Origin: Parcubacteria group bacterium GW2011_GWD2_38_11
Lineage (GTDB): Bacteria > Patescibacteriota > Minisyncoccia > Moranbacterales > GWC2-37-73
Direction of reading: 5' to 3'
Length of the DNA stretch: 51,066 nt
Assembly: GCA_000992325.1 (NCBI GenBank)
Contig: LBTZ01000022.1
Location: forward strand, 1 to 51,066
Below are positions 4,610 to 45,834 of this stretch, piece by piece. Every line of letters begins with the position of its first letter. Positions within the stretch are counted from its first letter, which is position 1. Made by a program: the position numbers and the translations under genes. The notes under the pieces were generated by a model, which saw only the letters and a list, made by a program, of their open reading frames with translations, had not been told where the DNA came from and ran no database searches.

Positions 4610-4777
4610 AGAATTGATGAAGTTTTGAATTTTGTGAGATTAAGAATATTTTTTAAATTTTCAATTTTCAGTTTCCAATTTTCAAATAATTTTCAATTTT
4701 TCAATTTACCAATGATTGAAAATTCAAGTATTGAAAATTAAATGTGAATTGTGAATTGATAATTGATCATTGTTGTT

Positions 4778-13134: not shown

Positions 13135-13140
13135 GCTTGA

Positions 13141-13226
13141 CCCCGCACTAACTTTTCACAAACGCAAAGCGCCAATTTATAAAATAAAAAATCTATTTAA
13201 GTTAAAAGTGAAAAGTTAGTGCGGGG
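13141..13226. repeat. 19-bp perfect inverted repeat
   Basis: CCCCGCACTAACTTTTCAC (13141-13159) / GTGAAAAGTTAGTGCGGGG (13208-13226). Confidence 0.85.
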
Positions 13227-13301
13227 TTGACAAAATGGCTTAAAATAGCTATACTGTATCGGTTATGGTATAATCATAATATAGATCTTTGAGAGTATAA
13301 T

Positions 13302-13776
13302 TTATCAAGTCAGTCAGGCAATCGCCCCGATTTATTGGGGAGGAAAGTCCGGACATTTCCTATGTAAATAGGAGCAAAGTAGCGGGTAACTCCCGTCCGT
13401 AGTGATGCGCGAGGTGCGAGCAGAGACGCCTTGATTTGAAAAAATCGGGCACCCTTCGGGGTGAGTCTTGATGGAAACATCAAGAGTGAAACGGCTAAAT
13501 CCTTACTTAAATGCAAGACCGTACTCCGATGCAAAGCATCGGGAATATCTAATTTCTAATATCTAATTTCTAATAAATTTCTAATATTTAATTTCAAATG
13601 TCTAAAATTTTTATTCATTGGTTATTAAAAAATTGGGATTTTATTGGAAATTGGAAATTGGTTATTGGTAATTCTGACGCTTTGCGTCGGTTTGTGTCGC
13701 TCGATCCCAATGGCAACATTGGGATAAGATAAATGATTGTCCCAGACAGAATCCGGCTTATCGGTTGGCTTGATAA
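13302..13776 (+). ncRNA. rnpB: RNase P RNA with an AT-rich insertion
   Basis: P1 TTATCAAGTCAGTC/GGTTGGCTTGATAA; GGGGAGGAAAGTCCGGAC; GCAAGACC; GCAA-capped P18-like hairpin ATCCCAATGGCAACATTGGGAT; ATAAATGATTGTCCCAGACAGAATCCGGCTTATCGG. Confidence 0.93.
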
Positions 13777-16082: not shown

Positions 16083-17516
16083 TTACTCTAGATAAGTGTG
16101 TATTGATGAAATTAAATAGAGCGAACCGGTTATGACGACTGGTTTTTTTGATGCGCGAATAGGCTTGATAATTTCAGATTTTTTGTTTCCGATGATTGAA
16201 AACTTTTTGAATTTTTGGGATTTGAAAAACGCTGAAATTTCTTGATTGTCGATAGAATTCCAGTGATTATCCATTCCTGAAGTGGAAAATTGTGTGAGCA
16301 GGATTTTGTCTGCTAGTGGGATGATATATTTTAGCATTACTTTGAAATCCTTGCCTTTCTTAAAAGCGACAACGAAAGTGAATTTTTGTGAGGGATAAAT
16401 TTTGGCAAGATTGCTGGTAAGAGCTTTCATTTTTTGCGGATTGTGCGCACCGTCGATGATCAATGCTTTGTCATTAATTTTGCGAATTTCTAATCTCCCA
16501 GTGACAGTGATATTTTCGAGCGCATTGCGCAAAGATTTTTCATTGACATCAAATTTGTCACGCGCTGATAATATTGAAAGGCAAGCGAGTGCGAGTGAAC
16601 AGTTTTCAGCTTGATGAATTCCAATCAAGCCTAAATGGATATTTTTTAAAGATAGTTTTTTTTCTTTGTCATTCCGGGCTTGACCCGGAATCCAGCCGGA
16701 CTTTATAGTTATATTGCTAACCGATGATTTTAATAAAGGCCGGATTCCCGTTTTCACGGGAATGACACAATGAAAATTAAAAACAGTTTCATTAGCGGTT
16801 GACGAAATGATGGAATAATTTTTCTTATTTAAAATGTTCAACTCCGCATTTTTTTTCTCGCACCTCGTCTTTATTGTATTGATGACTGATGACTGATGAC
16901 TGATGACTGAATTCCTAGTTCCTATAATTCCAGCTTTTTCAGAAGCGATCTTGGAAATAGTGTTTCCGAGAATTTGAGTGTGATCCAATCCTAGTTTTGT
17001 GATGATGCAAATTTTGTTTTTACTGGTGACTGTGTTGGTCGCATCCAGTGTTCCGCCAAGCCCTGTTTCCATCACAGCGTAGCCCAGTTTTTCTTTGGCG
17101 AACATAAAAAAAGCGAGAGCAACATTTATTTCAAAAAAAGTTGGCATACCATATTTACATTTTTCCATTTTTAAAATAATTGGCAAAATTTGGTTGAAAT
17201 ATTTAAGAACCAGTTTTTCATTTGCCAACTGATTGTTGATTTGCATTCTTTCGCGGATATCAAAAACGTGAGGAGAAATAGAGAGTCCCACAGAAAATCC
17301 TTGGCTTTGCAATATGTGGCTAATAAGGTGTGCAGTCGAGCCTTTGCCAGAAGTCCCAGCTATGTGGATAACTCTGATTTTGTTTTGAGGATTTTTGAGT
17401 AATTTCATGAAATATTTAGCTCTTCTTAAACCAATATCTCCCATAAACAAAGCCTCCCTCGTTGGAATACGGGTTTGTATGAAGGCTTCAAATTGTGCCA
17501 ATGTTGTAATTTTCAT
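16083..17516 (-). CDS. folC: Bifunctional folylpolyglutamate/dihydrofolate synthase, carrying repeat-derived insertions
   Basis: VIHIAGTSGKGSTAHLISHIL, METGLGGTLDATN, LGLDHTQILGNTISKIASEKAGI, IDGAHNPQKM. Confidence 0.92.
   Translation of the reverse strand: MKITTLAQFEAFIQTRIPTREALFMGDIGLRRAKYFMKLLKNPQNKIRVIHIAGTSGKGSTAHLISHILQSQGFSVGLSISPHVFDIRERMQINNQLANEKLVLKYFNQILPIILKMEKCKYGMPTFFEINVALAFFMFAKEKLGYAVMETGLGGTLDATNTVTSKNKICIITKLGLDHTQILGNTISKIASEKAGIIGTRNSVISHQSSVINTIKTRCEKKNAELNILNKKNYSIISSTANETVFNFHCVIPVKTGIRPLLKSSVSNITIKSGWIPGQARNDKEKKLSLKNIHLGLIGIHQAENCSLALACLSILSARDKFDVNEKSLRNALENITVTGRLEIRKINDKALIIDGAHNPQKMKALTSNLAKIYPSQKFTFVVAFKKGKDFKVMLKYIIPLADKILLTQFSTSGMDNHWNSIDNQEISAFFKSQKFKKFSIIGNKKSEIIKPIRASKKPVVITGSLYLISSIHTYLE
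16668..16766. repeat. 99-bp palindromic repeat inserted in frame in folC
   Basis: GTCATTCCGGGCTTGACCCGGAATCCAG...CGGATTCCCGTTTTCACGGGAATGAC; translated on the minus strand as VIPVKTGI...SGWIPGQARND. Confidence 0.85.
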
Positions 17517-19173: not shown

Positions 19174-19833
19174 ATGCGATTTGATATAATTACAATTTTT
19201 CCGAAGATTTTTGATAGCTATTTTGGCGAGTCAATTATTAAGCGTGCTAAGGAAAAGGATGCTGTTGAAATTAATGTGCATAATTTGCGAGATTATTCAA
19301 CCAACAAACATCATAATGTTGATGACACACCATATGGTGGTGGCGCTGGAATGGTGATGCAAGTCGAGCCAATTTATCGAGCAGTGGCTGACATTCAGAA
19401 AGCCAATTTGAAAACCAGAACAATTTTGTTTTCTGCTAAGGGAAAGAGATACAAACAAAAAGATGCAAAAAGATTGTCCCAATATGACCAGCTTATTTTT
19501 GTTTGTGGAAGATATGAAGGTGTTGATGAAAGAGTGGCACAGTTTGTCGTTGATGAGGAAATTTCCATTGGAGACTTTGTGCTGACTGGCGGCGAAATTC
19601 CGGCAATGTTGGTGGTGGACTCTGTCACGAGATTGCTGCCAGGAGTTTTGGGTAATGATCAAAGCGCAGTTGAGGAATCGCACAGCGAAGAAGGCTATTT
19701 GGAATTTCCACAATATACTAAACCGGAAAAATTTTTAAAGTGGGAGGTGCCTAGCGTGCTGCTTAGTGGAAATCACAAGGAAATTGAAAGATGGCGAAAG
19801 GGAAACTCAAAGAATTTGAAATTTAAAATTTGA
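19174..19833 (+). CDS. trmD: tRNA (guanine-N1)-methyltransferase
   Basis: [56 protein letters not shown]. Confidence 0.96.
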
Positions 19834-20015
19834 AATTCGAAATCAATTTTTAATAAATAAATTTTCAATGTTTTTAAAATTAAGACATTGGAATATTAGT
19901 ATTTGATTAAAAATTTCAAATTAAAAATTAAAAATTTGATAGTCAAAATAAAAAGGTAAAACTTTATTATTTAGAGATGTTGAAATAAGTAGAATATTAT
20001 ATAGAAGCGACCAAT

Positions 20016-21122: not shown

Positions 21123-21283
21123 CAATTTATGCTGGATTTATTGCGCGTTTGTTGCTATACTGAGTATATAAATACAATTTTCAATTCACAATTTTCAATG
21201 CATAAATTTTCAAACATTTGGAAATTTGGTCATTGGAAATTGTTTAGAAATTGGAAATTAAAAATTAGAAATTATTTAAAAGT

Positions 21284-26084: not shown

Positions 26085-26296
26085 GTTTCCACATTTCTTT
26101 TTCCGCAAAAGAAACCTGGAGGAAAGAAAACTCGCACCGGATGAAGATACTGTGGCAAAAACTTCGTTCTTCGCTAAAATTTACACTGCGTGCCTTCGCT
26201 TGCTAGCGGGCACTACGTTTCAAAATTTTTTAACGCTCATCACTCGTTTTTTGCCTACGTACTTCATATGGTGCAAATGGAATGCAGATACAAGAA
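26085..26296. repeat. Dispersed non-coding repeat, copy 2
   Basis: Homologous blocks shared with 15821-16075, in different reading frames. Confidence 0.75.
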
Positions 26297-27692: not shown

Positions 27693-28934
27693 ATGAAGCT
27701 TTCTAGCCCGATTAAAATATCTTATAAAAACCTGATGGCGGCCAAGTTCCGCTCGTTTTTGACGATTCTGGGGATTATTATTGGAATTGCTTCGGTGATT
27801 ATCGTGATGGCAATCGGTGCAAGCGCTCAACAACTCATTATTGCGCAGGTTTCAGGTGTTGGTTCGAATCTCGTTGGGGTTTTGCCGGGGGCTTCGGATG
27901 AAAAAGGTCCGCCAGCATCTGCGCTTGGGATTGTGACGACAACACTAAAACAACCTGATCTGGATGCTGTTTTGCTGAAAAAAAATGTGCCAAACGCTGT
28001 AGCAGCTTCTGGATATGTCAGTGGAATAGGAACGGCAAGGTATAAAAATAATTCTAGGCAGAATAATTTTCAAGGTGTTTCCGCGGATTTTATTAATGTG
28101 GAAAAAAACGATTTGGGATCTGGAAGATTTTTTACTAGTGAAGAAAATTCAGGTCTAGCTCGTGTGGCAGTTTTGGGTGCAACTACGGCGAAAGAACTTT
28201 TTGAAACTGAGGATCCGATTGGAAAAATGTTTTCTCTTAAAGATGTGAATTTTACAGTGATTGGTGTTTTGGCGCCAAAGGGTGGATCGGCAGTTTCTAA
28301 TCCTGATGAGTTGGTGTATATGCCATTGCTTACTGCACAAAAAATTCTGCTTGGAATCGACTATCTTAATTTTATGCGTGTTAAGATTGATAATCCTGAA
28401 AACATAACTCGCGCAGTTGCAGATATAAAATATACCATCAGGGTTCAGCATAGAATAAAAAATCCAAGCGATGATGATTTTTCAGTGCGGGATACTGCAC
28501 AGGCACTTAATGTGATCACAAACATAACCAATGTTCTTAAATATTTTTTAGCTGGAATCGCGGCAATTTCTTTGTTGGTTGGAGGGGTTGGTATTATGAA
28601 TATTATGCTAATTTCAGTTACACAACGTATTCGCGAGGTTGGTCTTAGAAAAGCTGTTGGTGCACGTAATCGTCATATTATCACACAGTTTTTGATTGAA
28701 TCTGTTTTTATTACTTTGGTTGGTGGCATAATCGGAATTATTTTTGGAATTTTAATATCACTTTTAGCAGCAGTAATTATTAATGCCTTGGGATATGATT
28801 GGGAATTTTTGATTTCATTTAGTTCGATTATAATTGCAACGTTGGTTTCAGTGCTGATAGGATTGTTATTTGGACTTTATCCTGCAAAAAAAGCAGCCAA
28901 GATTTCACCAATGGAAGCATTGAGATATGAGTAA
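27693..28934 (+). CDS. MacB-like ABC transporter permease
   Basis: SFLTILGIIIGIASVIIV N-terminus; GGVGIMNIMLISVTQRIREVGLRKAVGAR. Confidence 0.92.
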   Translation: MKLSSPIKISYKNLMAAKFRSFLTILGIIIGIASVIIVMAIGASAQQLIIAQVSGVGSNLVGVLPGASDEKGPPASALGIVTTTLKQPDLDAVLLKKNVPNAVAASGYVSGIGTARYKNNSRQNNFQGVSADFINVEKNDLGSGRFFTSEENSGLARVAVLGATTAKELFETEDPIGKMFSLKDVNFTVIGVLAPKGGSAVSNPDELVYMPLLTAQKILLGIDYLNFMRVKIDNPENITRAVADIKYTIRVQHRIKNPSDDDFSVRDTAQALNVITNITNVLKYFLAGIAAISLLVGGVGIMNIMLISVTQRIREVGLRKAVGARNRHIITQFLIESVFITLVGGIIGIIFGILISLLAAVIINALGYDWEFLISFSSIIIATLVSVLIGLLFGLYPAKKAAKISPMEALRYE

Positions 28935-29058
28935 TAGTTTGTAAAGTTTATAAAGTTCATAAAGTTTGTAAGGTTCATAAAGTTTGTAATGTTTGTAAAG
29001 TTCATAAAGTTCATAAAGTTTGTAAAGTTTGTAAAGTTTGTAAGGTTCATAAAGTAAA
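28930..29058 (+). repeat. Degenerate 9-mer tandem array
   Basis: About 12 units of AARGTTYRT (AAAGTTCAT / AAAGTTTGT / AAGGTTCAT ...). Confidence 0.9.
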
Positions 29059-39903: not shown

Positions 39904-40026
39904 CGAGCGTAATTTCGAAGTTTGAATTTCGAATTTCGAATAAAATCACAATGAACAAATGTTTAAAACATTAAAAATTCAATCATTGGAAATTCATTCA
40001 AAATTAAAAATTCAAAATTAAAAATT

Positions 40027-40308
40027 ATGGAACGTGGAGGAATTATAAAAAATGATATTTCTAAGTCTCCCAAAACAGGGGATTGGGCATATTCAAAACC
40101 AGAAGTTGATAAGGATAAATGCATTGGCTGTGAAACTTGTGTTCAATATTGTCCAGATGCTTGTATTGAAATGCAAACTCACAACTCACAACTCACAACT
40201 GACAACAAAAAACAAAAAAAAGTTGCTGATATCGATTATGATTTTTGCAAAGGCTGTGGCGTTTGCGCGCAAGTATGCCCAGTCAAAGCAATTTCCATGA
40301 GGAAATAG
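40027..40308 (+). CDS. porD: 2-oxoacid:ferredoxin oxidoreductase delta (ferredoxin) subunit
   Basis: CIGCETCVQYCPDAC and CKGCGVCAQVCPVKA 4Fe-4S motifs. Confidence 0.9.
   Translation: MERGGIIKNDISKSPKTGDWAYSKPEVDKDKCIGCETCVQYCPDACIEMQTHNSQLTTDNKKQKKVADIDYDFCKGCGVCAQVCPVKAISMRK
40178..40205 (+). repeat. Heptamer tandem repeat inside porD
   Basis: CTCACAA x3 plus CTGACAA. Confidence 0.9.
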
Positions 40309-40472
40309 CTTTGAAATTTACAATGATCAATTTTCAATTTACATTGAAATCTCAATGATGCAATGAATAAATGAAAAAAGATTTAATTGGAAATTAGAAA
40401 TTGAAAATTTAATGAAAATTGTGAATTGAAAATTGAAAATTTGATAGGCTTAATTTATATCATCTTGAAATA

Positions 40473-41651
40473 ATGGATAAAAAATCTTCAAAAAATAAAA
40501 CTAGTATCAAGGCCTTGTCAGGTGGCTATGCAATGGCGGAGGCTTTGCGTCAAATTCATCCAGATGTTATGGCTGTGTATCCAATCACGCCACAGACAAC
40601 GATTATTGAAACGTATGCCAAATTCAAGGCGGATGGGTTGGTGGAAACTGAAATTATTCAAGTCGAATCTGAACATTCTGCGATGAGTGCAACGATTGGG
40701 GCTTGCAGCGCTGGTGCGCGCGCCGTGACCGCCTCGAGTTCCCAAGGACTTTTGCATATGGCCGAGACTTTGCCGGTTGTTAGTGGTCTTGGACTTCCAA
40801 TTGTGATGTGTGTGAGTTCCCGGGCTCTTTCAGCCCCGCTCAACATTCACGGCGAGCACGGCGATGTGATGGCAATTCGCGACTTTGGTTGGGTGCAAAT
40901 TTTCGGAGAACAAGCTCAGGATGCCTATGACAACACAATAATTGCCCTCAGGCTGGCTGAAATGGCGGGGGTGCCAGTTATGCCCATTATGGACGGTTTT
41001 CACACCTCGCACACCACAGAGCGTGTGGAAGTGCTTGGGGATGAAATTATCCAGAGTTTTGTCGGACAATTCAAGCCCGAAAATGCTCTTTTGGATCAAA
41101 AAAACCCTATAACTATCGGAACTTTGGCTCTGCAGAACACTTATTTTGACTTTAAAATAGATCAAGAAAAAGCCTTTCTAAAAGTGAAGACTTTGTACAA
41201 AAAAATCTGCGCTGAATATGGCAAAATTTCAGGTCGCAAGCATAGTCTTTTTGAGGAATATAAAACAAAAGATGCTGATTTTGTGATTGTAATGATGGGC
41301 GCAACCGCTGGAACCGCCAAAGACGCAGTTGATGTGCTGCGCGCAAAAGGTAAAAAAGTTGGCTTGCTTAAAATAAACTTGTTCAGACCATTTCCATATA
41401 AAGAGGTTGGCAGCGCTCTGGCGCACACTAAAAGTATCGCAGTGCTTGATCGTGCGATGGCTTTCGGATCATTTCCGCCGCTGTATCAAGACATTGTGAC
41501 TAGTATGCAGAGTGCAGGCTCTCGCAAGCACGATGTTGCTAGTTACATCTATGGTATCGGCGGACGCGACACAATGCAATCTCACATTATTTCTGTTTTT
41601 AAAGATTTGGAAGAAGGAGAAGTAAGTAATAAAATTAAGTATCTGACCTAA
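40473..41651 (+). CDS. porA: 2-oxoacid:ferredoxin oxidoreductase alpha subunit
   Basis: YPITPQTTIIE, ESEHSAMSATIGA, TASSSQGLLHMAE. Confidence 0.93.
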   Translation: MDKKSSKNKTSIKALSGGYAMAEALRQIHPDVMAVYPITPQTTIIETYAKFKADGLVETEIIQVESEHSAMSATIGACSAGARAVTASSSQGLLHMAETLPVVSGLGLPIVMCVSSRALSAPLNIHGEHGDVMAIRDFGWVQIFGEQAQDAYDNTIIALRLAEMAGVPVMPIMDGFHTSHTTERVEVLGDEIIQSFVGQFKPENALLDQKNPITIGTLALQNTYFDFKIDQEKAFLKVKTLYKKICAEYGKISGRKHSLFEEYKTKDADFVIVMMGATAGTAKDAVDVLRAKGKKVGLLKINLFRPFPYKEVGSALAHTKSIAVLDRAMAFGSFPPLYQDIVTSMQSAGSRKHDVASYIYGIGGRDTMQSHIISVFKDLEEGEVSNKIKYLT

Positions 41652-45777: not shown

Positions 45778-45834
45778 AAAACTTTACAAACTTTATAAAC
45801 TTTATAAACTTTACAAACCTTATAAACTTTACTT
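45778..45834 (+). repeat. Degenerate 9-mer tandem array upstream of ftsE
   Basis: ACTTTACAA/ACTTTATAA units, roughly the reverse-complement word of the 28.9-29.1 kb array. Confidence 0.85.

Follow-up and report, generated by a model that had tools for sequence, protein, structure and literature searches.

The window analysed was an entire contig (G000:C22) of 51,066 nucleotides from the 936-kb genome of Parcubacteria group bacterium GW2011_GWD2_38_11 (G000). Using the neighbouring PBP2 gene, its relatives were placed in Candidatus Moranbacteria/Moraniibacteriota (Patescibacteria), among them GW2011_GWC1_36_108 (G005), UBA12142 (G004) and GW2011_GWE2_36_40 (G002). The genome carried a single copy of the RNase P RNA gene rnpB, located in this window with the following features, helices being named after their position in the Rfam model.

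13227–13255, + strand: likely rnpB promoter, TTGACA-17-TATACT, sigma-70-like, about 50 nt 5′ of the RNA (predicted, read from the sequence)
13306–13776, + strand: rnpB, class A RNase P RNA (RF00010, 127.7 bits, E 7.5e-39, model positions 1–367)
13517–13520, + strand: 5′ strand of P15 (GACC), immediately 5′ of the insertion site (Rfam alignment)

The RNA was assigned to class A, its score being above the gathering score of 100 and the full model being covered. This full-length alignment confirmed the insert of heptad arrays that a preliminary description had reported within rnpB, between P15 and P18. The promoter block was kept in G003 and G001. Between PBP2 and the promoter, at 13137–13226, a palindrome (CCCCGCACTAACTTTTCAC...GTGAAAAGTTAGTGCGGGG) was present that was missing in G003 and G001; a related core (CCCGCACTAATTTT..AAAATTAGTGCGGG) was found within rnpB of G038 (L023).

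The substrate-CCA motif of L15 was missing in G000, G004 and G005, which carried UUUGU, and was kept as GGGU in G002 and G003. An encoded CCA was missing from most tRNA genes sampled. Relaxed constraint near L15 may have favoured insertion into P17; it is not required for insertion, since inserts also occurred in other helices. A cluster of five tRNA genes (L057, 3608–4142, G000:C7), with anticodons also present elsewhere, had an encoded CCA in four of the five genes, unlike the other tRNAs sampled, and is possibly foreign.

About 130 additional bases were put in the P16/P17 region by the Rfam alignment, with the insert at the tip of P16/P17, which supports the earlier proposal of a helix extension. 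The insert and its surroundings were composed as follows.

13526–13542, + strand: left bordering hairpin L, CCGATGCAAAGCATCGG (CCGATGC-AAA-GCATCGG), 17 nt, P16/P17 stem, a self-palindrome
13544–13673, + strand: inserted foldback element of type A with heptad arms, 130 nt, matching dispersed copies with the same ends
13544–13605, + strand: left arm, AATATCT/AATTTCT heptads followed by AATAAATTTCT (TRF; alignment with dispersed copies)
13616–13673, + strand: right arm, inverted heptads with ATTGGGATTTTATTGGAAATTGGAAATTGG (TRF at 13643–13673; near-identical to the right arm of G000:C9:15078-15203)
13674–13690, + strand: right bordering hairpin R, CTGACGCTTTGCGTCGG (CTGACGC-TTT-GCGTCGG), 17 nt, pairing with L at 16 of 17 positions

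Within the insert, TRF arrays of AATATCTAATTTCT (4.6 copies) and ATTGGAA (4.4 copies) were detected. The borders were derived from dispersed copies, which typically began and ended at positions 19 and 148 of the query 13526–13690; when 13544–13673 was used as query, matches began and ended at 1 and 130 even in other genera and families. The insert had thus been located correctly by the preliminary description, at 13544–13674, with the exact right border one position earlier and the 17-nt hairpins on either side overlooked.

In 537 kb of G000, the L/R hairpin motif was confined to the two borders of the rnpB insert. The insert-free counterpart of hairpin L in G005 and G003 was a single hairpin, CCAATGCTTTGCATTGG. 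The loops of L and R were complementary at 18 of 21 positions (P ~8e-6) and matched directly at 2 of 21, which identifies the borders as inverted copies. A target-site duplication of the hairpin was rejected because the loops are hardly alike in direct orientation. Similarly, the hairpins were judged not to belong to the dispersed element of G000, since spacer copies did not carry them. Neither group I nor group II introns were matched at the gathering threshold anywhere in the window; by that test, the insert is not a self-splicing intron.

The region 13512–13700 was predicted to fold into one long helix at −68.1 kcal/mol, compared to −30.7 ± 3.7 kcal/mol for shuffled sequences (z −10.2), so that the self-complementarity previously proposed for the arms was upheld. 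For the insert of G000 and five inserts of relatives, a continuous L:R helix was favoured by 8–15 kcal/mol over separate folding of each 17-mer. Because L and R are each (near-)perfect self-palindromes, with changes compensated within each hairpin, a branched tip in which they fold separately is possible. The element alone had 48 predicted pairs, and its sense strand folded better than its antisense strand (−35.6 versus −11.2) because in the transcript its imperfect pairs are G-U. Better folding of the sense strand was observed for type A inserts at five of five independent RNA-gene sites (orthologous inserts are not independent of one another) and for 13 of 23 spacer copies, the orientation of which is arbitrary; one dispersed copy was about as strand-asymmetric as the copy in rnpB. 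This sense-strand bias hints at RNA-level upkeep, the sample being small and spacer copies pairing too. Arm pairing as such was dropped as proof of RNA-level selection for the latter reason.

Repeats of the same kind were searched by an inverted-repeat scan covering 443 kb of G000 and by a motif census covering 537 kb, both taken as regions. The scan yielded 25 AT-rich palindromes of >75 bp with 7-bp periodicity. About 18 of these aligned in one register, consisting of four heptads AATTTNN, the 11-mer AATNAAATNNN, AATGANN and a centre with ACATT. The rnpB insert was organised in this way too, with a right arm that matched that of the copy G000:C9:15078-15203 almost base for base. The two heptad arrays that were initially described as pairing are therefore better understood as two inverted arms of one palindromic element, sharing its inner register with these dispersed copies. 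The best local scores of the insert were 57–59 (copies in L053 and L059), against maxima of 28.5–32 for shuffled copies.

With 13526–13690 as query, BLAST returned 28 matches in G000 and 54 in G004, 37 in G003, 36 in G005, 27 in G002 and 6 in G001, bearing out the suggestion that a spacer repeat had entered an essential RNA. The insert alone gave full-length matches (1–130) in G010, G026, G006 and G030; among 16 other Moraniibacteriota genomes, 10 were without a match at 1e-7. This patchy distribution, together with the constant ends, argues against an artefact of AT composition. Segments with lag 7 numbered 18 in G000, versus 0–4 at lags 5, 6, 8, 10 and 11, lag 9 being a second period with 12 segments; the 7-bp period is a property of the G000 genome. 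The following copies of the family were located in the window.

4661–4766, unstranded: family copy (inverted-repeat scan and alignment)
19819–19937, unstranded: family copy (inverted-repeat scan and alignment)
21176–21259, unstranded: family copy (inverted-repeat scan and alignment)
39910–40027, unstranded: family copy, with an unrelated 86 bp at this site in G004 and G005
40320–40450, unstranded: spacer copy of the family, the site being nearly empty in G005 and empty in G003

The stretch 40307–40473, filled in G000, was represented by 13 bp in G005 and by nothing in G003; the family thus inserts elsewhere too. By eye, no target-site duplication was evident in spacer copies, and the borders in rnpB were inverted rather than direct. 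In short, the family is MITE-like: its members are short, non-coding and multicopy, with inverted arms, constant ends and presence/absence at orthologous sites. We infer that the foldback element is or was mobile.

The P15–P17 segment measured 23 nt in G005, 25 nt in G002 and in G003 and 30 nt in G001, as opposed to 171 nt in G000 and G004. A conserved helix of the same length in close relatives, which would have spoken against an insertion, was therefore not found in four of the five congeners. The P15–P18 span had a bimodal distribution across 48 rnpB loci from the order, with 40 loci at 55–82 and 8 at 155–283. These lengths indicate that the P17 repeat was inserted.

In G004, a separate species with an independent assembly, the junctions were the same and the insert was 96–97% identical. 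In the flanking genes, identity between G004 and G005 was 97.5% (PBP2) and 95.2% (glycosyltransferase), versus 85–87% between G000 and either of them, making G004 and G005 sisters. Over the segment reaching from P7 to the left side of P17, identity was 98.8% for G000 and G004 and 86% for G004 and G005; in P18, G004 and G005 did not differ, and identity between G004 and G000 was 29%. The rnpB gene is thus a mosaic between species, G004 being G000-like over P7–P17 including the insert and G005-like in P18 (13306–13776 compared with L032 and L021). Given the sisterhood of G004 and G005 in the flanks, recombination is the simplest reading of the near-identical segment in G000 and G004, and the insert-bearing part of rnpB was probably moved between species in this way.

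Inserts were also found at other helix tips of rnpB. Among 19 family members, with segment lengths given only where the flanking anchor was present, baseline and insert lengths were, respectively, 27–45 and 150–314 for P3, 28–38 and 95–190 for P5/6, 21–29 and 83–183 for P8–9, 57–68 and 128 for P11–14, and 18–30 and 126–240 for P15–17. P18 measured 26–27 nt in all 19 members, inserts being present at other tips only. Three such inserts were carried by rnpB of G015 and four, counting P3, by that of G018. In genus g7, similar elements occupied the rnpB helices P5/6, P9 and P17 as well as the 23S rRNA helix H98, where a hairpin-bordered heptad foldback element was observed in three species (G015, G017 and G018; L149 571–769, L150 1047–1245 and L151 1501–1699). 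The G000 bin gave no LSU (23S) match.

In genera g1 and g7, the inserts in P5/6, P9, P17 and H98 had a 17-nt hairpin on one side and an inverted copy of it on the other, and two types with such borders were distinguished, the heptad type A and type B (CACTGACCAATGCTGACTTAAC...). The g7 hairpin CCAGTGCnnnGCACTGG occurred 11 times in six genomes, always at rnpB or 23S inserts and around two unrelated interiors; unrelated interiors were likewise found at the same tips in relatives. A second foldback insert, of type B and unrelated to the P17 insert of the same gene, was present in P3 of rnpB in G004 (L032, G004:C13).

A stand-alone GIY-YIG ORF (PF01541, 59.3 and 57.4 bits) was nested in the rnpB helix P3 of two species that belong to different genera (L031 and L207, G001:C24:14894-15100; L035, G016:C20:6477-6683). 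In G016, this ORF was flanked by an inverted repeat, CCCAGCCCTTTGAAATTATT / AATAATTTCAAAGAGCTGGG, forming the P3 stem. A mini-element of about 75 bp (CCAGCCCTTTTGG...CCAAAAGGGCTGG) had four copies in 12 genomes, every one within rnpB (P5/6 and P11–14 of G016, G014 and G001; L035, L024 and L031), and its end CCAGCCCTTT was the end of the GIY-YIG element of G016. The end of the GIY-YIG ORF was common to type C only, which is unrelated to the type A family.

All evidence considered here is comparative sequence, and it is best explained by a non-coding palindromic (foldback, MITE-like) repeat, dispersed in Moraniibacteriota spacers, of which one copy would have landed at the tip of the P16/P17 hairpin. 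The insert would be transcribed with rnpB and its arms would pair, lengthening P17 into one long, mostly A-U/G-U helix. Such an extension would not disturb P15, P18 or the catalytic core, and the essential RNA would therefore continue to work; we infer that the extended RNase P RNA is functional. The insertion would be tolerated and not selected for. That a copy of the foldback repeat occupies the P16/P17 tip and is tolerated as a helix extension is very probable, and the element is most likely a selfish palindromic one. Considering the similar insertions in other arms of rnpB and in rRNA of relatives, rnpB and 23S rRNA appear to be recurrent landing sites. A more specific proposal, in which structured RNA genes of Moraniibacteriota are dedicated landing sites for foldback cassettes carried between two inverted small hairpins, is based on the confinement of CCAGTGCnnnGCACTGG in g7 to RNA-gene inserts, the GIY-YIG ORF in P3 and the end shared with the mini-element found in rnpB only; it is put forward tentatively and seems to us rather doubtful. 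If true, it would define a class of mobile elements adapted to helix tips in essential RNAs.

The fate of the RNA could differ without any change in the nature of the element. As happens with intervening sequences (IVS) of 23S rRNA, the long helix may be excised by RNase III without religation, in which case the mature RNase P RNA would consist of two pieces that tertiary contacts and the L:R stem keep together. Such excision, a sub-case of the tolerated extension, is a serious contender, if not quite what we would expect. An RNase III gene was found in G000 (239 bits) and in 10 of 11 relatives searched, which is permissive only; the 48 predicted pairs of the element and the occurrence of the same element type in H98 of three g7 species, 23S rRNA being a known place of RNase III-excised intervening sequences, point the same way. 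On the other hand, the helix has bulges, and some class A RNAs retain long helices uncut. A helix selected as a functional part of the RNase P RNA of this lineage, for example as a platform replacing lost tertiary contacts, would fit its better pairing in sense than in antisense and its maintenance in G000 and G004, between which five substitutions have left the folding energy unchanged (−63.9 and −64.1). It is nevertheless improbable, as the helix is missing in close species, its sequence is that of a spacer repeat and the same tips hold unrelated interiors in relatives.

Expansion of tandem, STRR-like heptads by slippage within P17, followed by selection for pairing, could account for the heptad periodicity of both arms and has a counterpart in partnerless heptad arrays elsewhere in the genome; with arms that are inverted and a non-periodic inner segment and ends common to dispersed copies, we consider it very unlikely. 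Finally, the assembly is fragmented and repeats are prone to misassembly (rnpB of one relative, G022, contained a run of N), so that a chimera, or else an rnpB pseudogene, was considered. The junctions recur in the UBA12142 species, which was assembled independently and whose flanking genes are 85–87% identical, contrary to the chimera that had been named beforehand as a possible refutation; moreover, the rnpB concerned is the only one in the genome and retains the conserved core. Either explanation is thus scarcely credible. The tolerated foldback insertion is thus retained as the preferred reading.

Cyanobacterial STRRs are tandem heptamers. The parallel with them drawn in the preliminary description holds for the outcome, a short genomic repeat with a 7-bp period lying within rnpB, but not for the kind of repeat: instead of head-to-tail heptamers without an inverted partner arm, G000 has a palindrome of two inverted arms with defined ends, forming an extended helix, in Patescibacteria. 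The reference for STRR heptamers in the rnpB gene of heterocystous cyanobacteria is Vioque 1997 (NAR 25:3471), as cited in PMC2858038. Intervening sequences are known from 23S rRNA, for example of Coxiella (PMC4990558), and rRNA insertions in CPR bacteria include IVS, most insertion ORFs encoding homing endonucleases (PMC11270868, which mentions neither RNase P nor palindromes). The present insert resembles an IVS in entering an essential-RNA helix at a variable tip, in its occurrence in 23S H98 of relatives and in the presence of an RNase III gene; unlike an IVS, its host in G000 is RNase P RNA and its interior is an ORF-less dispersed spacer repeat. The family shares with bacterial MITEs and palindromic repeats (review PMC10969869) that it is short, non-coding, multicopy and built of inverted repeats. 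It differs from bacterial MITEs in its heptad-built arms and in that no target duplication is evident. Rickettsia palindromic elements are a further example of such bacterial palindromic repeats.

Large helix extensions in CPR RNase P RNAs, including one extended P15, and frequent loss of UGG were described by Lui et al. 2021 (PMC8172020), who do not name the extensions as dispersed elements and make no mention of sites that recur, of hairpins at the borders or of an ORF nested within. In the open-access literature, to which the search was directed and which excludes subscription journals, no report was found of bacterial RNase P RNAs containing palindromic elements or GIY-YIG ORFs, or of dispersed palindromic elements at multiple RNase P RNA helices. 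On the present reading, an essential ribozyme of bacteria with very small genomes would have been entered repeatedly by foldback repeats at several helix tips, as would 23S rRNA by the same repeat. This offers a source for the swollen helices behind the poor standard-model scores of CPR rnpB genes, and natural insertion-tolerance maps of RNase P RNA. Two questions also become testable: whether cells of CPR bacteria contain their RNase P RNA in fragments, and by what route palindromic repeats arrive at hairpin tips.

Other repeats were observed in the window. A folC-like gene (16083–17516, minus strand) contained an in-frame heptad array, TGATGAC (4.4 copies), at 16880–16910 and, beyond it, a palindromic repeat that is likewise in frame and translates as VIPVKTGI..WIPGQARND, so that repeats also enter coding sequence. 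A dispersed repeat of about 200 bp at 26086–26285, adjoining a dRS3-like palindrome, had copies in four congeners that were mostly 83–97% identical. A 9-bp unit (GTAAAGTTT and complement) was repeated in arrays at 28931–29055 and 45779–45832, the former being missing at the orthologous site in G003.
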